Origin: Snodgrassella alvi
GTDB taxonomy: Bacteria > Pseudomonadota > Gammaproteobacteria > Burkholderiales > Neisseriaceae
Direction: 5' to 3'
NCBI RefSeq assembly: GCF_040741455.2
Contig: NZ_CP160328.2
Location: 744,001-808,000, forward strand
Length of the DNA: 64,000 nt
The position numbers and the translations under genes are program-made. Of this stretch, positions 49,107 through 55,334 are shown piece after piece; the first letter of the stretch is position 1; every line of letters begins with the position of its first letter. The notes below the pieces were generated by a model. The model was not told where the DNA came from and did not search any database. It saw only the letters and a list, made by a program, of their open reading frames with translations.

Positions 49107-49121
49107 AAACAGTACCTCACC

Positions 49122-49179
49122 GGCCATGCAGTTTCCCGGTCGGTAGATACTGTAGACTAACCCGGAAACCTCAACGGCC
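49122..49179 (-). promoter_or_regulatory. Structured leader hairpin before mgtA
   Basis: On the minus strand a long stem can form. GGCC (49179-49176) pairs with GGCC (49125-49122), and GTTTCC (49169-49164) pairs with GGAAAC (49136-49131), with a few more pairs inside. Its left arm begins inside the last codons of the leader ORF. Its right arm ends directly before the mgtA ribosome binding site. No member of the M-box riboswitch class could be recognised. Confidence 0.6.
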
Positions 49180-49233
49180 TAGTTGCAGTTGTGGTATCAA
49201 TAAAATAAACGGTCGACTCGAATCTTCTTCCAT
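49171..49233 (-). CDS. Short acidic leader peptide upstream of mgtA (MgtL-like in design)
   Basis: A 20-codon ORF beginning MEEDSSRPF, ended by TGA at 49171. GGGA lies 8 bases before its ATG. In E. coli and Salmonella, translation of the short leader mgtL is aborted at low Mg2+ because an N-terminal acidic and Pro-rich stretch (MEPDPTP) destabilises the ribosome; this turns mgtA on. Here the first residues are also acidic (EED) and followed by SSRP, but the peptide has no further similarity. The last codons overlap the left arm of the leader hairpin, so ribosome position could control hairpin formation. It is a candidate, not proven. Confidence 0.55.
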   Translation of the reverse strand: MEEDSSRPFILLIPQLQLGR

Positions 49234-49537
49234 TGTTTTATTCCCGGTTAAATAATCAGAAACTCAATGCATCGCATTAAGCTCAGCAAATACTAAAACA
49301 TCCATCTCTTAAGTATTATGCCTTTTGCGTATAATTACTTAAAAGACAGAAATATTTCAGCAAGATAGCGTTTATACGGATTTGCAATGATAGCGTCAAC
49401 AAAATTTACGCTATTCAAAACAAAAAACAATATTATTCACACTACACAAAATTCATTACAGTATATTCACCCAATCCAAACATACATAAAATAAGTATGA
49501 CCACCCATTATTACAGAGAAAACCTAAAACCATCAGA
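49234..49537. other. mgtA upstream region after the mutY stop
   Basis: AT-rich promoter region for the minus-strand mgtA leader. A CATAAT-like -10 lies near 49317-49322 on the minus strand, but I found no clean -35. No recognisable PhoP box. Confidence 0.45.
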
Positions 49538-50608
49538 TTAAAAAAGACTGTTTTGCACCGCATTCAGATAGCTGTGCAATGGTTTAGGAATACCATAAAC
49601 AGCCAGATTTTCTGGTGCCACCCACTCACCTGCTATCCTTGCCGATACCGGCGCTTGCTCACCAGCCACAGCTGCGAACGGCAAAATCATCAACTGCCGG
49701 TGCGTCAGACGATGCTTAATTTCTGTGCCTTCAGTCAAATCTTCCGCCTGTACACCGAAATCACAGGCAAGTGCATACAAATCATCCAGACTCTCGCTAC
49801 AGGGTACACACCATAAACCACCCCAGATCCCTTTAGCCGGCCGCTTAGTTAAAAACACCGCTCCAGCACGATTACGCAATACTAGCCAGTAAAGCGCCAC
49901 ATCCTTAACTGCTACTGCCGCTTTCCTACGTGGCAACTCAGCCGTGCGGCCTTGCAGATGTGCCAGACAAATATCATTCATCGGGCAAACAGCACATACC
50001 GGTTTCAATCGTTTACATACCGTAGCACCTAAATCCATCAACCCCTGAGTATAAGCCGGCATATCTGCAGCATTCCGTGGCAGCAGAGCTTCAGCCGTTG
50101 TCCACAGTTTTGCCTCAAAAGCTTTATTGGCCGGATCACCATCCAACGCAAACAAACGGCACAACACCCGCTTTACATTGCCATCTAAAATAGTTTCCCG
50201 TGCATTAAAACAGAACGCAGCAATTGCTGCTGCAGTACTGCGCCCCACTCCACAAAGCCTTTGCAGCTCTTTTCGCTCAGACGGAAACACACCACCAAAC
50301 TCATTTACCACCTGTTGCGCAGCTTTGTGCAAATTGCGGGCACGGCTGTAATAGCCAAGTCCCTGCCATAGACCCAGCACCGCGTCTTCTTCTGCAGCTG
50401 CCAGTGCCTGCACATCTGGAAAAGTAGTCACAAACCGCGGGTAATAATCCAGCACCGTCGCCACCTGAGTCTGTTGCAACATAATTTCCGAGAGCCATAC
50501 CCGATACGGCTCCTGCGTCTGCCACGGTAAACCATGCCGGCCATGTTGCCGCTGCCATTGCACCAACCGCGGAGCAAATTCAGACTTCAAAACTTCCTCA
50601 TTTCGCAT
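49538..50608 (-). CDS. mutY: A/G-specific adenine glycosylase MutY
   Basis: Base excision repair enzyme that removes adenine mispaired with 8-oxoguanine. The 356 residues show the HhH-GPD glycosylase core (SEIMLQQTQVATVLDYYPRF with catalytic Glu near residue 40, and LCGVGRSTAAAIAAFCFN...ILDGNVKRV with catalytic Asp near 141). The [4Fe-4S] cluster site has Cys at about 196, 203, 206 and 212 in C-X6-C-X2-C-X5-C spacing. A C-terminal Nudix-like domain (residues about 230-345) recognises 8-oxoguanine. The ATG at 50608 gives a normal N-terminus. It is upstream of mgtA on the same strand, with the mgtA leader between them. Confidence 0.97.
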   Translation of the reverse strand: MRNEEVLKSEFAPRLVQWQRQHGRHGLPWQTQEPYRVWLSEIMLQQTQVATVLDYYPRFVTTFPDVQALAAAEEDAVLGLWQGLGYYSRARNLHKAAQQVVNEFGGVFPSERKELQRLCGVGRSTAAAIAAFCFNARETILDGNVKRVLCRLFALDGDPANKAFEAKLWTTAEALLPRNAADMPAYTQGLMDLGATVCKRLKPVCAVCPMNDICLAHLQGRTAELPRRKAAVAVKDVALYWLVLRNRAGAVFLTKRPAKGIWGGLWCVPCSESLDDLYALACDFGVQAEDLTEGTEIKHRLTHRQLMILPFAAVAGEQAPVSARIAGEWVAPENLAVYGIPKPLHSYLNAVQNSLF

Positions 50609-50957: not shown

Positions 50958-53900
50958 ATGGGCAATGCGTATTGGGCCGCCCGCGAAGGGGACATCCTAT
51001 TACACACCTCGATGCTCGCAGACATCGTTGGTGCGGCTGTAGAAATAGCATGCTATGCAGCCATCACCGCCGCAGTAGGTTTTGCCATTTTCGGCACCAT
51101 CACCACCGGCGGACTACTCCTAAGTGTCCTTGTCGGCGTACTCATGGCCATTTCAGGTGGTGATACCATCGTATCCAACCTCTCCAACTGGGTCAGTAGC
51201 CTCTTTCCGCCCTCCGAAGATGGCAAAATCAAAACCGGCTCGCCCAATACCCGCACCAATGGCAAAGCTTCCGCCCGCGCCGCAGGTGCCATAGATCAAA
51301 GCATTGAACTAAGTGACAGCAGCGAAGAACCACAGCAGCCCGAAAACTTCGCCGATATAGCAGGTATACTTATCGCAGCCGGAGAAATCGCCCAGGAATT
51401 TATTCGGCCAACAGTCGCCTCACCCGATCCCAGAGCAGAACCCAGAGATGACGACAAAATACTTTGCCGCAAACATCCGCATCCGTTCGGCACAGATGAA
51501 TATCTGGCCGAAGGTTCCAGTAAGGTCTACATCAACAGCCAGCCGGCCGTACGCAGCAACGACCGCAGCACCTGCGAAGCCAAAGTCACCGACGACCATA
51601 CCGGCGGCGTCAAAGTATCCAGCAACGTACGCATCGGTGGTGAGCCCATCGTCGTGCGTGAAATCAGAAGCGGCAAACACCCCGTTGCCCAGCTTATTGG
51701 TGTGGTTTCAGCCTTAAGACGTCCCCGCAAAATCTGTTCCAAAATCAAATGTCTTGTCCTGGCCATCGCCAGTAATGCAGGCACCAGCTTAGCCTCTGCC
51801 AAAATAGCACAAGCATTTACCCGCGGCCACCCCGTCCACCTCCCCACCGGTGCCAAACTCCTCTTCGACACCGAAGAGCTCGACTTCACCCTCCCCGCCC
51901 ATCTGCCCCTCCAATGGCAACGCTTCTACAGCAGCGTCGACACCCGTACCCACAACATGTTCGGCGCCGGATGGAGCGTCAGCTTCGAAGTCGAAATCGA
52001 AATCTCCCCCCAGCCCGATGGCTCCTGTGCCGCCGTCTATATCAACGAACAAGGCCGCCGCCTCGAAATCGACCCCTTACAACCCGGCGAAGGCATGCGC
52101 GGCATCAACGAAAACCTCACCATCCGCCGTGGCCAGCACAACCGCTGGGTCATCGAAGACGACGACGGCCTTTACCGCCTCTTCGAGCCCGACCCCAACC
52201 AACCCCACCGCCTCTACCTCACCGCACTTCAAGATCGCAACGACAACCGCCTCCTTCTTTACCGCGACAGCCACAGCCGCATCATCGAAATCACCGACAA
52301 CGACCGCAGCACCCGCCTCTCCCTGCACTATCAGCATCCCCAGCACCCACAACGCGTCACCACCATCAAACAGCAACTGGCCAATGGCCACAGCCGGGTA
52401 CTGGCACAATACCAGTACACCGCACAGGGCGACCTCCAACACGTCATCGATGCCGAACAGCGGCACACCCGCACCTTTGCCTACGACACCGGCCGACGCC
52501 TCATCTACCACCGCCTGCCCACCGGCCTGCACTGCCACTACCAGTGGGATTACTTTGCCGATGCCGCCGAAACCGCCTGGCGCGTCACCCATCACTGGAC
52601 CGAAGCAGATGGCCAGCGACAAGAAGACTATCACTTTCACTACGATATTGAGCAACGCCTCACCACCGTCAAAGACAGCCTGGGACGCATCAGCCAGCAT
52701 TACTGGAACGAAGTCTACCAAATCACCCGCTACATCGACCCCCTTGGTCACACCACCGCATTTGAATGGAACGACAACCAACAACTCATCAGCGTCACCG
52801 ACGCCCAAGGTGGACAATGGCGCTACAGCTATGACGAACAAGGACGCGAAACCGCCGAAACCGACCCACTGGGACGCACCACCCAGACCCAGTGGTTACC
52901 CCACTGGGCCTTACCCACCATCAGCGTCGACCCCGACGGCAGCACCTGGCGCTACTACTATGATGAACGCGGCAACCTGCTGACCGTCATCGACCCCTTA
53001 AAACAACGCACCCGCTACCAATACGACCAGCACGGCCAAATAACCAGAATCACCGATGCCAGAGGTGGGCACAAATACCTGCGCTGGAACCCGAACGGCC
53101 AGCTTATCCAACATACCGACTGCTCCGGCTCCCTGACCCAGCTTGGCTACGACCGCCATGGCAACCTGACCGACATCACCAACGCCATCGGCAACAGCAG
53201 CCGCTACCAGTACAACGCCGCCGGCGACCTTATCAGCGCCACCTTGCCCGATGGCCGCCAAGAACACTTCAGCGTCAATGCAGCAGGACAATTACTGACC
53301 TATACCGACCCCGCCGGCCACACCACCCATTACCATCGGGACCCGCGCGGACTGGTGCACCGACGCACCGATAGCGCCGGACGCAGCATCCGCTTTCACT
53401 ATGATACCTATAGCCGGCTGACTACATTAACCAACGAAAACGGCGAGCATTACCAATTCACCTACGACGCCGGCGACCGCCTAACCGAACAGACCGATCT
53501 GGGCGGACGTAAACAAAAGCTGACTTACGATCAGCTGGATAACGTCAGTGCCGTTCACTTTGCTGCCGGCAGCCCCGCCGAAATCACCCACCGCTTCACA
53601 CGCGATGCCATCGGCCGACTGATTGGCAAACACACCCCCGATGGCAACACCGCCTACCAGTACGACCCCGCCGACAACCTCATCAAAGTCGGCTACAAAA
53701 AAGCCGGCTTACCGACCGAGGCCGAAGCAGACATCATCACCTTTCGCTACGACATCATCGGCAACCTGCTGAGCGAAACCACCGCACAAGGCACCCTCAG
53801 CCATCAGTACGACCAACTGGGCAACCGCATCGCCACCACCTTGCCCGATGGCCGTACCCTCAACAACCTCTATTACGGTTCCGGCCATCTGCACCAAATC

Positions 53901-55334
53901 AACCTCGACGGCACCACCATCACCGACATCGAACGCGACCGCCTACATCGCGAAGTCCTGCGTAGCCAGGGACAACTGAACACCGAATTCAGATACGACC
54001 GCAACAGCCGCCTGCAACACAAACAGACCCGGCGTGGCCACAACACCATCCTGCCCGACATCCTTACCGACCGCCGCTACCAGTACGACAACCTCGACCG
54101 GCTGGTGAGTAAAAAACATACCCGGCAAGGACAGACCGATTACCACTATGACCGCACCGGCCGTATCGAAAGCTGCCGCAACCAAGCCTACTGGGAAACC
54201 CTGCAATACGATGCCGCCGCCAACCTGCTGGATAAAAGACGCAACGAAGACAACAGTACCGACAACCAAAACCTGGTTCGCTTTAACCAGCTACTCCACT
54301 TCCGCGGCCTGCAATACACCTATGATGCACACGGCCGTACCCACAGCAAACAGACCGCCAGCGGTACCCAGTACTACAGCTATGATGCCGAACACCGCCT
54401 GACCGAAGTGCGTATCGAAAAACAAAACCGTACCGAACGCTACGGCTATGTCTACGATGCCTTAGGCCGACGTATCGAAAAACACCAGATAGACCGGGCG
54501 GGCAAAGCCTGCAACCGTACCCGTTTCCTGTGGGACGGGCTGAGAATGATTCAGGAAACCCGTACTGACAGAAGCAAAAGCGTCTATATCTACACTGATG
54601 AAAGCGGCTATGAACCCTTAGCCAGAGTAGAGACCACCACCGGTACGGAACAGAAAGTGCTGTACTACCACACCGATGTCAACGGTGCCCCGGAAGAACT
54701 CACTGATGAAGACGGTCACATTGTATGGGCATGCAGCTATCAGCTGTGGGGCAAACCGATACAGGAAATCGAACACAGCCAGATACAACAGAACCTGAGG
54801 TATCAGGGACAGTATTTAGACAGAGAAACGGGCTTACATTACAATACTTTCAGGTACTATGACCCGGATATAGGCAGATTCACGCAGCCGGACCCGATTG
54901 GGTTGCTGGGTGGATTTAATCTGTATCAGTATGCGCCTAACTCACTGATGTGGATTGATCCGTGGGGATTAGAATGTAATTTTCTCAATCGACGACAAGC
55001 TTTAAATAAAGCTAAAGATCTTGCTAAAATTCCTCATTCTCAACAGCCAGAGAGACAGTGGATAGTTGGAAATATCCCCGTGAAAAAAGGGCAAAAAAAT
55101 TATAAATATTCGGAGGATTTTGGTTCACATGGTCGATATTATGAATATAGAAATGCTCAAGGACATAAACGTGTTATTGTTGATCATACAAATGACCCAA
55201 GAGCGAAAGGAATACATACACATGCAGGAAAGCCAAAAACTGGTGCAGACTCAAGAAACTATGATTTTAAAGAAGAAAGATATTTAAAAATTATCAACCC
55301 ATCAACAAATGACCATCATATTTATTATGAATAA
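50958..55334 (+). CDS. PAAR-Rhs polymorphic toxin (type VI secretion effector) with HNH-like C-terminal tip
   Basis: A 1458-residue effector. The first residues (YWAAREGDILLH) match the prePAAR motif AARxxD. Two hydrophobic segments follow, near 20-75. A PAAR-like domain lies near 160-235 (KHPHPFGTDEYLAEGSSKVYINSQPAVRSNDRSTC). Residues about 290-1330 are YD/RHS repeats forming the cocoon, with RYYDPDIGRFTQPDPIGL at the end and the conserved DPWGL cleavage site at about 1334-1338. The last 120 residues are a toxin tip. AAGGGG precedes the ATG. The core is visibly GC-richer than the genome, while the tip is AT-rich, indicating separate origins. The type VI machinery is not in this window. Confidence 0.93.
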   Translation: MGNAYWAAREGDILLHTSMLADIVGAAVEIACYAAITAAVGFAIFGTITTGGLLLSVLVGVLMAISGGDTIVSNLSNWVSSLFPPSEDGKIKTGSPNTRTNGKASARAAGAIDQSIELSDSSEEPQQPENFADIAGILIAAGEIAQEFIRPTVASPDPRAEPRDDDKILCRKHPHPFGTDEYLAEGSSKVYINSQPAVRSNDRSTCEAKVTDDHTGGVKVSSNVRIGGEPIVVREIRSGKHPVAQLIGVVSALRRPRKICSKIKCLVLAIASNAGTSLASAKIAQAFTRGHPVHLPTGAKLLFDTEELDFTLPAHLPLQWQRFYSSVDTRTHNMFGAGWSVSFEVEIEISPQPDGSCAAVYINEQGRRLEIDPLQPGEGMRGINENLTIRRGQHNRWVIEDDDGLYRLFEPDPNQPHRLYLTALQDRNDNRLLLYRDSHSRIIEITDNDRSTRLSLHYQHPQHPQRVTTIKQQLANGHSRVLAQYQYTAQGDLQHVIDAEQRHTRTFAYDTGRRLIYHRLPTGLHCHYQWDYFADAAETAWRVTHHWTEADGQRQEDYHFHYDIEQRLTTVKDSLGRISQHYWNEVYQITRYIDPLGHTTAFEWNDNQQLISVTDAQGGQWRYSYDEQGRETAETDPLGRTTQTQWLPHWALPTISVDPDGSTWRYYYDERGNLLTVIDPLKQRTRYQYDQHGQITRITDARGGHKYLRWNPNGQLIQHTDCSGSLTQLGYDRHGNLTDITNAIGNSSRYQYNAAGDLISATLPDGRQEHFSVNAAGQLLTYTDPAGHTTHYHRDPRGLVHRRTDSAGRSIRFHYDTYSRLTTLTNENGEHYQFTYDAGDRLTEQTDLGGRKQKLTYDQLDNVSAVHFAAGSPAEITHRFTRDAIGRLIGKHTPDGNTAYQYDPADNLIKVGYKKAGLPTEAEADIITFRYDIIGNLLSETTAQGTLSHQYDQLGNRIATTLPDGRTLNNLYYGSGHLHQINLDGTTITDIERDRLHREVLRSQGQLNTEFRYDRNSRLQHKQTRRGHNTILPDILTDRRYQYDNLDRLVSKKHTRQGQTDYHYDRTGRIESCRNQAYWETLQYDAAANLLDKRRNEDNSTDNQNLVRFNQLLHFRGLQYTYDAHGRTHSKQTASGTQYYSYDAEHRLTEVRIEKQNRTERYGYVYDALGRRIEKHQIDRAGKACNRTRFLWDGLRMIQETRTDRSKSVYIYTDESGYEPLARVETTTGTEQKVLYYHTDVNGAPEELTDEDGHIVWACSYQLWGKPIQEIEHSQIQQNLRYQGQYLDRETGLHYNTFRYYDPDIGRFTQPDPIGLLGGFNLYQYAPNSLMWIDPWGLECNFLNRRQALNKAKDLAKIPHSQQPERQWIVGNIPVKKGQKNYKYSEDFGSHGRYYEYRNAQGHKRVIVDHTNDPRAKGIHTHAGKPKTGADSRNYDFKEERYLKIINPSTNDHHIYYE
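54972..55331 (+). other. Toxin tip of the Rhs effector (HNH/endonuclease VII-like, tentative)
   Basis: Residues 1339-1458 follow the DPWGL boundary. They begin NRRQALNKAKDLAKIPHSQQP, the usual start of a set of Rhs tips often described as HNH/endonuclease VII-fold toxins. The later segment RYYEYRNAQGHKRVIVDH and IHTHAGKPK provides Glu, His, and a His-x-His, fitting an EHHH-type metal site. This is pattern recall without a profile search, so nuclease activity is a hypothesis. Confidence 0.55.

Follow-up and report, generated by a model that had tools for sequence, protein, structure and literature searches.

A short acidic ORF lies ahead of a Mg2+ ATPase gene

The window, a 64,000-nucleotide stretch of the 2.29-Mb Snodgrassella alvi genome, carries on its minus strand a gene for a Mg2+ P-type ATPase and, 5′ of it, a short ORF beginning MEEDSSRPF (Table 1). 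As a preliminary description of this DNA had proposed, the ORF has 20 codons (49233-49171) and its own ribosome-binding site (SD), GGGAA, at -12 to -8 relative to its ATG. It starts 127 nt ahead of the pump start ATGAAAAAATTA (49106). Acidic codons Glu2, Glu3 and Asp4 directly follow the ATG in 11 of 11 genus genomes, and the proline stands at position 8, with none at position 4. Among 117 SD-led mini-ORFs in the same window (ATG start, 5-60 amino acids, both strands), positions 2-5 hold at least 2 acidic residues in only 3 and at least 3 in 1.

The next gene upstream (49538-50608) encodes what we take, from its sequence, to be a MutY-like protein; a 1458-amino-acid ORF near the locus (50958-55334, plus strand) is presumably, from its repeats, an RHS-repeat-like protein. 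Leaders between mgtC and mgtB do occur at other loci (L155 and L156), but here the upstream neighbour is the MutY-like gene, with a promoter-like site in between. The preliminary description had named a transcription start downstream of 49233 as a point against its proposal. The promoter-like pair TTGACG-17-TATAAA (49399-49371) instead lies 5′ of the ORF, and transcription is expected to start near 49364, a position placed from this pair. The automatic promoter scan gave no match here because its rule demands T as the last base.

The -35 region falls within an imperfect inverted repeat, GCGTAAATTTTGTTGACGC (49411-49393, minus), which is partly conserved in the genus and may be a regulator site. 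The -10 element plus the next bases, TATAAACGCTATCTTGCTGAA (49376-49356, minus), is shared unchanged by 10 of 11 genomes, which is not true of the ~100 nt after it. A terminator-like stem with a T run lies 5′ of the leader ORF (49284-49260, minus), and the corresponding stretch varies in the genus.

Table 1 Features of the leader and pump gene, in window coordinates
Feature	Position	Strand	Basis
-35-like TTGACG	49394..49399	minus	sequence; identical in 11/11 genus leaders
-10-like TATAAA, 17 nt from -35	49371..49376	minus	sequence; identical in 11/11
Region 1 TAACCGGGAA, contains leader SD GGGAA, pairs with region 2	49241..49250	minus	predicted pairing
Predicted invariant hairpin over leader start (49241-49226 with 49216-49200)	49200..49241	minus	RNAalifold
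Leader ORF MEEDSSRPFILLIPQLQLGR, 20 codons	49171..49233	minus	sequence; intact in 11/11 genus genomes
Region 2 GGTTTCCGGGTTA, adjoins leader stop codon, pairs with region 1 or 3	49158..49170	minus	predicted pairing
5′ arm of hairpin 3:4 ACAGTATCTACCGACC	49138..49153	minus	predicted pairing
Region 3 segment pairing with region 2, GACCGGGAAACT	49130..49141	minus	predicted pairing
Region 4, 3′ arm of hairpin 3:4, holds mgtB SD	49109..49125	minus	predicted pairing
mgtB SD GGTGAGG	49115..49121	minus	sequence
mgtB-type Mg2+ P-type ATPase, 895 aa	46419..49106	minus	NF011702/PRK15122 profile and MgtB clade

The pump groups with MgtB

Judged by its sequence, the pump is of the MgtB type and not MgtA. 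It scores 1596 bits against NF011702/PRK15122 (cut-off 975), a model that alone cannot separate MgtB from MgtA because it passes its cut-off in E. coli too. In a tree of 143 proteins, drawn from 157 loci after omission of L019, L023-L030, L034, L037, L052, L060 and L149 (left out as fragments, duplicates or other ATPases, or for a stop), the window pump falls inside a clade of 66 loci with a support of 0.992. When E. coli MgtA, 54% identical to the window protein, was added (144 proteins), the same 66 stayed together (support 0.996) and MgtA lay outside. Inside the clade is mgtC-linked mgtB, represented by a plasmid-borne Serratia gene (71% identity) and annotated as mgtB at L156. With E. coli MgtA outside and mgtC-linked mgtB inside, we call the window gene mgtB; the name mgtA given in the preliminary description does not hold, and public annotation likewise labels many members of this clade mgtA.

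Within the genus, mgtB is found in 11 of 14 genomes and is missing from G007 (60% complete), G011 and G012. The closest MgtB relatives found belong to Gilliamella (L062-L065; 72-73% identity), a bee gut symbiont, and within the window's family the gene is confined to 15 of 83 genomes, which together suggest gene transfer.

The leader is kept across the genus

Conservation in close relatives had been proposed as a check on the ORF, and start, acidic N-terminus, length and stop are kept in all 11 mgtB-bearing genomes of the genus, with the consensus MEEDSS[RL]PFILL[IK][PLTQH]QLQ[LQ]GR. Between the leader SD and the mgtB start, the alignment has a single length difference, of 4 nt. Upstream of the ORF, as far as the promoter, the genus alignment by comparison carries many insertions and deletions, and the retention of the ORF 11 times out of 11 amid this drift counts in favour of the regulatory switch proposed below.

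Across ten loci (the L031 leader is the same as that of L001), only codons 7, 12, 13, 14, 16 and 18 vary, with the residue altered at 7, 13, 14 and 18; that residues 13, 14 and 18 vary counts against the switch. Codons 1-6 and 8-11 are invariant, more than a peptide would require and in agreement with the hairpin predicted over the start.

Alternative pairings are predicted around the mgtB ribosome-binding site

The leader RNA is predicted to pair in two alternative ways: 1:2 plus 3:4, in which the mgtB SD would be hidden, or 2:3, in which it would be free. Both persist in all 11 genomes, apart from one or two mismatched pairs in each stem. The hairpin that the preliminary description had drawn between the end of the ORF and the stretch before the pump SD does exist, as GUUUCC/GGAAAC within 49170-49159 and 49141-49130; it competes with a stronger hairpin (49153-49138/49125-49109) that encloses the pump SD. 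In the hairpin stability test, from which the short windows of L003 and L009 were excluded, the window hairpin has z = -2.99 and is equalled in 1 of 200 shuffles.

Covariation support for the pairings is thin. Over 10 distinct rows, 1:2 plus 3:4 is paired in 96.2% of cells (slid controls 21.9-48.8%) and has two pairs changed on both sides, for which 10 of 500 shuffles are as good. The corresponding values for 2:3 are 93.3% of cells (reached by 42 of 500 shuffles; slid controls 18.0-58.7%) and one pair changed on both sides (87 of 500 shuffles as good). Columns 6 and 90 of 1:2 read C-G, U-A or U-G, columns 7 and 89 form a G-G mismatch in 9 of 11, and a G-C of hairpin 3:4 becomes A-U in L009, with both sides changed. 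RNAalifold, run on the same rows, returned 1:2 and 3:4 unprompted.

Calculated energies run from -17.4 to -22.5 kcal/mol for 3:4 and from -9.9 to -16.4 kcal/mol for 2:3; 3:4 is the stronger in 11 of 11, which counts against the switch. Since the leader stop codon adjoins region 2, a ribosome at the stop would mask region 2. When equilibrium folding was run with the leader start blocked, 3:4 generally stayed and there was no general flip of the SD: its accessibility rose clearly only in L003 (0.22 to 0.57), rose by at most 0.13 in L001, L031, L002, L004, L006, L007 and L010, was the same in L009 and dropped in L005 and L008. Equilibrium folding with the leader stop occupied gave no change. The lack of a general switch at equilibrium counts against a simple version of the model, which needs folding during transcription.

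The hairpins could also serve attenuation of the kind known from mgtL of mgtA, with leader translation deciding Rho termination within the ~258-nt leader and the hairpins exposing or hiding a Rho-loading site instead of the mgtB SD. The stem that hides the uORF SD in mgtA and corA leaders resembles 1:2 (PMC11552253 and PMC11282234). We regard this as unlikely: the position of the mgtB SD within hairpin 3:4 suits translational control, the gene is of the MgtB type and the ORF has no EPDP.

A second in-frame ATG lies at 49127 (49127-49106, minus), seven codons 5′ of the mgtB start, and is kept in 11 of 11 genomes; the extension reads MAGEVLFM in the window and MVGEVLFM in most relatives, and the GGGAA preceding this ATG sits within the loop of hairpin 3:4. 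In a search of the window for known RNA families, only a tRNA at 2199-2271 reached the gathering score; three matches in the leader fell below it (best E 0.033) and were of families unexpected here.

Acidic leaders recur ahead of MgtB-type genes

We scored loci by a rule: an ATG with an SD, lying within 450 nt, that opens an ORF of 5-60 amino acids with at least 2 acidic residues among positions 2-5. The earlier locus set took up 30 of the profile matches listed. Many of these loci had already been looked at when the rule was set; loci sampled later provide the fresh test. Such an ORF was present at 11 of 11 genus loci (0.10 in shuffled DNA) and 26 of 55 other loci in the MgtB clade (shuffles 0.54), compared with 0 of 77 loci outside it (shuffles 0.99). 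Among fresh loci, with MgtB-type taken as >1350 bits, it was found in 4 of 12 from a phylum sample (shuffles 0.15) and 7 of 18 from one family (shuffles 0.14), against 1 of 12 controls (shuffles 0.10); in this test, a wrong offset was used for control L172, L159 and L112 are probably one genome, and L170 seems to match L104, which is outside the MgtB clade. Two of the 7 positives in the one-family set (L198 and L200) have EEPEP/DEPEP-like starts, and the other five are closely related among themselves. The single control match, L173 at -299 (MALDDDDQPEPSTG), precedes an ATPase gene of 1256 bits with NF011702.

The remaining 29 of the 55 other MgtB loci fail the rule, and this counts against the switch. 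They include Gilliamella, where an upstream acidic ORF was looked for at the four loci nearest by MgtB (L062-L065) and none was found. Related ORFs that are less acidic, have a weak SD or run on in a longer frame accompany the rule-failing loci L112, L072, L074, L075, L091, L035, L085, L092, L087 and L066. In family f28, a search for DSY/ESY/SSR added no mgtB leader beyond those of the fresh test.

Peptides related to the window's MEEDSSRPF begin MESDSSRPR in Castellaniella, MDDDSSRWL in Pseudochrobactrum, MEDGSSRMR in Pandoraea, MNSDDSSRL in Burkholderia, MDEASSRFA in Pseudomonas, MDDYPSRPA in Phyllobacterium and MDDDPRPLI in genus g6 of the window's family. Enterobacterial counterparts are MDDHPGFLW in Serratia rubidaea, MDGDPESLM in Serratia proteamaculans and MDVPRRLK in Enterobacter soli; the last lies between mgtC and mgtB and has 8 amino acids, or 9 from an ATG just before. 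Related leaders thus span alpha-, beta- and gammaproteobacteria, and the preliminary description was too narrow in confining the arrangement to a betaproteobacterium. Its broader proposal, an acidic leader ORF with hairpins ahead of a Mg2+ P-type ATPase gene, fared better, since the ORF is genus-wide and its acidic start recurs far outside the genus. The leaders of Burkholderia, Castellaniella, Pandoraea, Pseudochrobactrum, Phyllobacterium, Pseudomonas and g6 resemble that of the window in their place before mgtB, in acidic residues at positions 2-5 followed by Ser/Pro and Arg, and, in the rule-passing ones, in their SD. They differ in length (12-53 amino acids) and in their dissimilar tails, and alternative RNA pairings were worked out for the window's genus.

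Burial of the mgtB SD was considered as a common feature of uORF-bearing MgtB loci and dropped: it is no commoner in 26 such loci than in the 60 scored of 77 outside the clade (p = 0.56), and shows no excess over 23 MgtB loci without a uORF (p = 0.86), which likewise counts against a simple version of the switch.

Acidic/proline ORFs of a further type precede MgtB-type genes in one family (MSEEPEPQPP at L033 -425, MTEEPEPEPR at L198 -343 and MLSDEPEPRP at L200 -362, counted from the first matched mgtB codon). Short MEPDP-like ORFs without a clear SD occur at L043 -222 (MPEPEY), L055 -213 (MPDPEHLLPA) and L019 -232 (MPDPDFFRL); the L043 and L055 genes are outside the MgtB clade, L019 is unplaced, and the L043 pump shares 64% identity with E. 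coli MgtA. At 2 of 77 loci outside the clade (expected 0.59) and 2 of 66 inside (expected 0.40), a second upstream motif resembling MgtL, P[DE]P or [DE]P[DE] close to the start, was present.

Selection and codon use in the leaders

Codons 2-10 were compared with later codons in seven sets, as nonsynonymous/synonymous pair counts, not rates. The g6 pair has 0/2 in codons 2-10 and 23/1 later, the Phyllobacterium pair 0/0 and 13/1, and the four Burkholderia loci 0/0 and 40/15, so that 3 of 7 sets keep every residue of codons 2-10 while their tails drift. Six Pseudomonas loci lean likewise, weakly (22/23, later 314/39), and a second Pseudomonas pair shows zero changes. In Providencia and Serratia/Yersinia, codons 2-10 are not specially conserved (13/4 and 13/2). 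The patterns of g6, Phyllobacterium, Burkholderia and Pseudomonas look like the trace expected from an element acting early in the nascent chain.

These counts also bear on whether the nucleotides are kept for a structure or a binding site, with the ORF incidental. Synonymous changes in codons 2-10 of g6 and Pseudomonas argue otherwise, as do the lineages that keep frame, SD and acidic start with different nucleotides (MDDYPSRP, MDDDPRP, MTDDSYP and MDEHPRW) and the absence of the acidic uORF from all 77 loci outside the MgtB clade. Such an RNA-only element would account for the invariance of codons 1-6 and 8-11 in the genus, mostly within the predicted hairpin, and for the recurrence of GACAGTAGTCG in several genera, but we think it very improbable.

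Codon use was counted in 24 leaders selected for the resemblance of their peptides (of Ser/Arg type or from g6); some lack a good SD, and enterobacterial ones were excluded. The rows are not independent, several species being included per genus. Of 46 Ser codons in codons 2-9, 34 are AGT, compared with 2.43 expected from the adjacent mgtB genes. The first Arg codon, in the 20 leaders having one there, is CGA in 9, AGG in 8, CGG in 2, AGA in 1 and CGC or CGT in 0; CGC makes up more than half of the Arg codons in each of eight mgtB genes counted. It appears that a codon or an RNA sequence is kept in these 24 leaders.

A self-hairpin at the SSR codons, CGAC-AGTA-GTCG, fits Burkholderia, Castellaniella, Pseudochrobactrum and L091 by eye. 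It was not adopted because the Pseudomonas leaders do not fit that form.

Such codon use could mean that the leader senses charged tRNA or elongation speed, with rare AGT-AGT-CGA/AGG codons slowing the ribosome and Mg2+ acting only indirectly. Both the AGT excess and the choice of CGA, AGG, CGG or AGA in 20 of 20 first Arg codons speak for this. Even so, it is distinctly unlikely, given that AGT is not rare in mgtB of the window genus (0.32 of Ser codons), that enterobacterial leaders, outside the 24, have no AGT block, and that no other feature is shared as widely as the acidic start.

A proposed translation-abort switch

The leader of mgtB is probably a translation-abort switch of the mgtQ kind, a reading that we hold with moderate confidence and in which the regulatory steps and the translation of the ORF are inferred by analogy. 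As modelled, three elements meet in the window leader, namely a stem that covers its own SD, acidic residues at the start and a hairpin hiding the mgtB SD, and this combination leads us to propose the switch, by analogy with mgtQ and MgtL. RNA polymerase would start near 49364, and ribosomes loading on the leader ORF would keep region 1 unpaired. With plentiful Mg2+, the ribosome would pass Glu2-Glu3-Asp4, reach the UGA and cover region 2; 3:4 would then fold, hiding the mgtB SD and turning mgtB off. When Mg2+ is scarce, the acidic nascent chain, perhaps together with slow codons after it, would destabilize the ribosome, which would drop off near codons 3-7. Region 2 would then be free, with region 1 held open by initiating ribosomes, and 2:3 could form during transcription before region 4 exists, allowing mgtB to be translated.

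A bolder extension, which we offer tentatively as possible, treats the mgtB leaders of alpha-, beta- and gammaproteobacteria as one family of composite sensors. An acidic run, M-[DE]-x-[DE], would destabilize the ribosome, and a codon-fixed slow block, AGU-AGU-CGA/AGG (Ser-Ser-Arg), would then hold it, so that codons and not residues alone are conserved; mgtQ would be one trimmed branch. If our reading is right, acidic-start ribosome destabilization would be a form of Mg2+ sensing that accompanies mgtB and is widespread in Proteobacteria, and the rare codons kept in the leaders would allow a direct test of the part that decoding speed plays in setting the sensor.

Comparison with mgtQ and MgtL

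Among the literature matches listed, judged by title and the start of the abstract, none reported an mgtB leader outside enterobacteria; searches for an mgtB leader peptide in Burkholderia and for Snodgrassella with mgtA found none.

mgtQ has been demonstrated for five enterobacterial species, and Serratia proteamaculans is listed in the same paper (PMC8092293). In Salmonella, the 1:2/3:4/2:3 logic was established by mutation: disruption of stem 1 raises, and of stem 2 lowers, mgtB translation (PMC8092293). Asp2 and Glu5 are required, L31 opposes the effect, and the Pro codon acts via pairing and not as a residue (PMC8092293). The window genome has one L31 gene.

Salmonella mgtQ-mgtB shares with the window a short SD-led ORF before mgtB with acidic codons near its start, and regions 1-4 in which 1:2 plus 3:4 hides the mgtB SD and 2:3 frees it (PMC8092293). 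The calculated energy of 2:3 is -16.4 kcal/mol in Salmonella mgtQ and -9.9 to -16.4 kcal/mol in the window genus; in Salmonella, however, 2:3 is stronger than 3:4, the reverse of the window (PMC8092293). The window leader has 20 codons where Salmonella mgtQ has 8 (PMC8092293), and is a 5′ leader with its own promoter-like site after a MutY-like gene, whereas mgtQ occupies the interval from mgtC to mgtB. In the window, region 1 spans the leader ORF's SD, and in Salmonella it spans codons; the window also has Ser-Ser-Arg after the acidic run and Pro at position 8, compared with Pro at 4 in mgtQ. MDVPRRLK of Enterobacter soli shares length, Asp2 and Pro4 with Salmonella mgtQ (PMC8092293).

In MgtL, acidic EPDP destabilizes the ribosome and EttA counteracts this (PMC11282234). 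In the leaders of mgtA and corA, the uORF SD is sequestered by a stem (PMC11552253). MgtL-mgtA of Salmonella and E. coli thus resembles the window in an acidic leader start for a Mg2+ P-type ATPase and a stem over the uORF SD. E. coli MgtL starts MEPDPTP, whereas MEEDSSRP has no EPDP, and, unlike MgtL-mgtA, the window has an MgtB-type gene and an SD-hiding hairpin at the pump gene itself.

The preliminary description had viewed the leader as convergent with MgtL, without sequence homology. That view was dropped once relatives were found that bridge the window leader to the enterobacterial mgtB leader mgtQ (MEEDSSRP, MDDYPSRP, MDDDPRP, MDDHPG and MDVPRR). These bridging peptides make homology with mgtQ likelier than convergence, although ten residues are not proof, and the leader is better filed with mgtQ than with MgtL.
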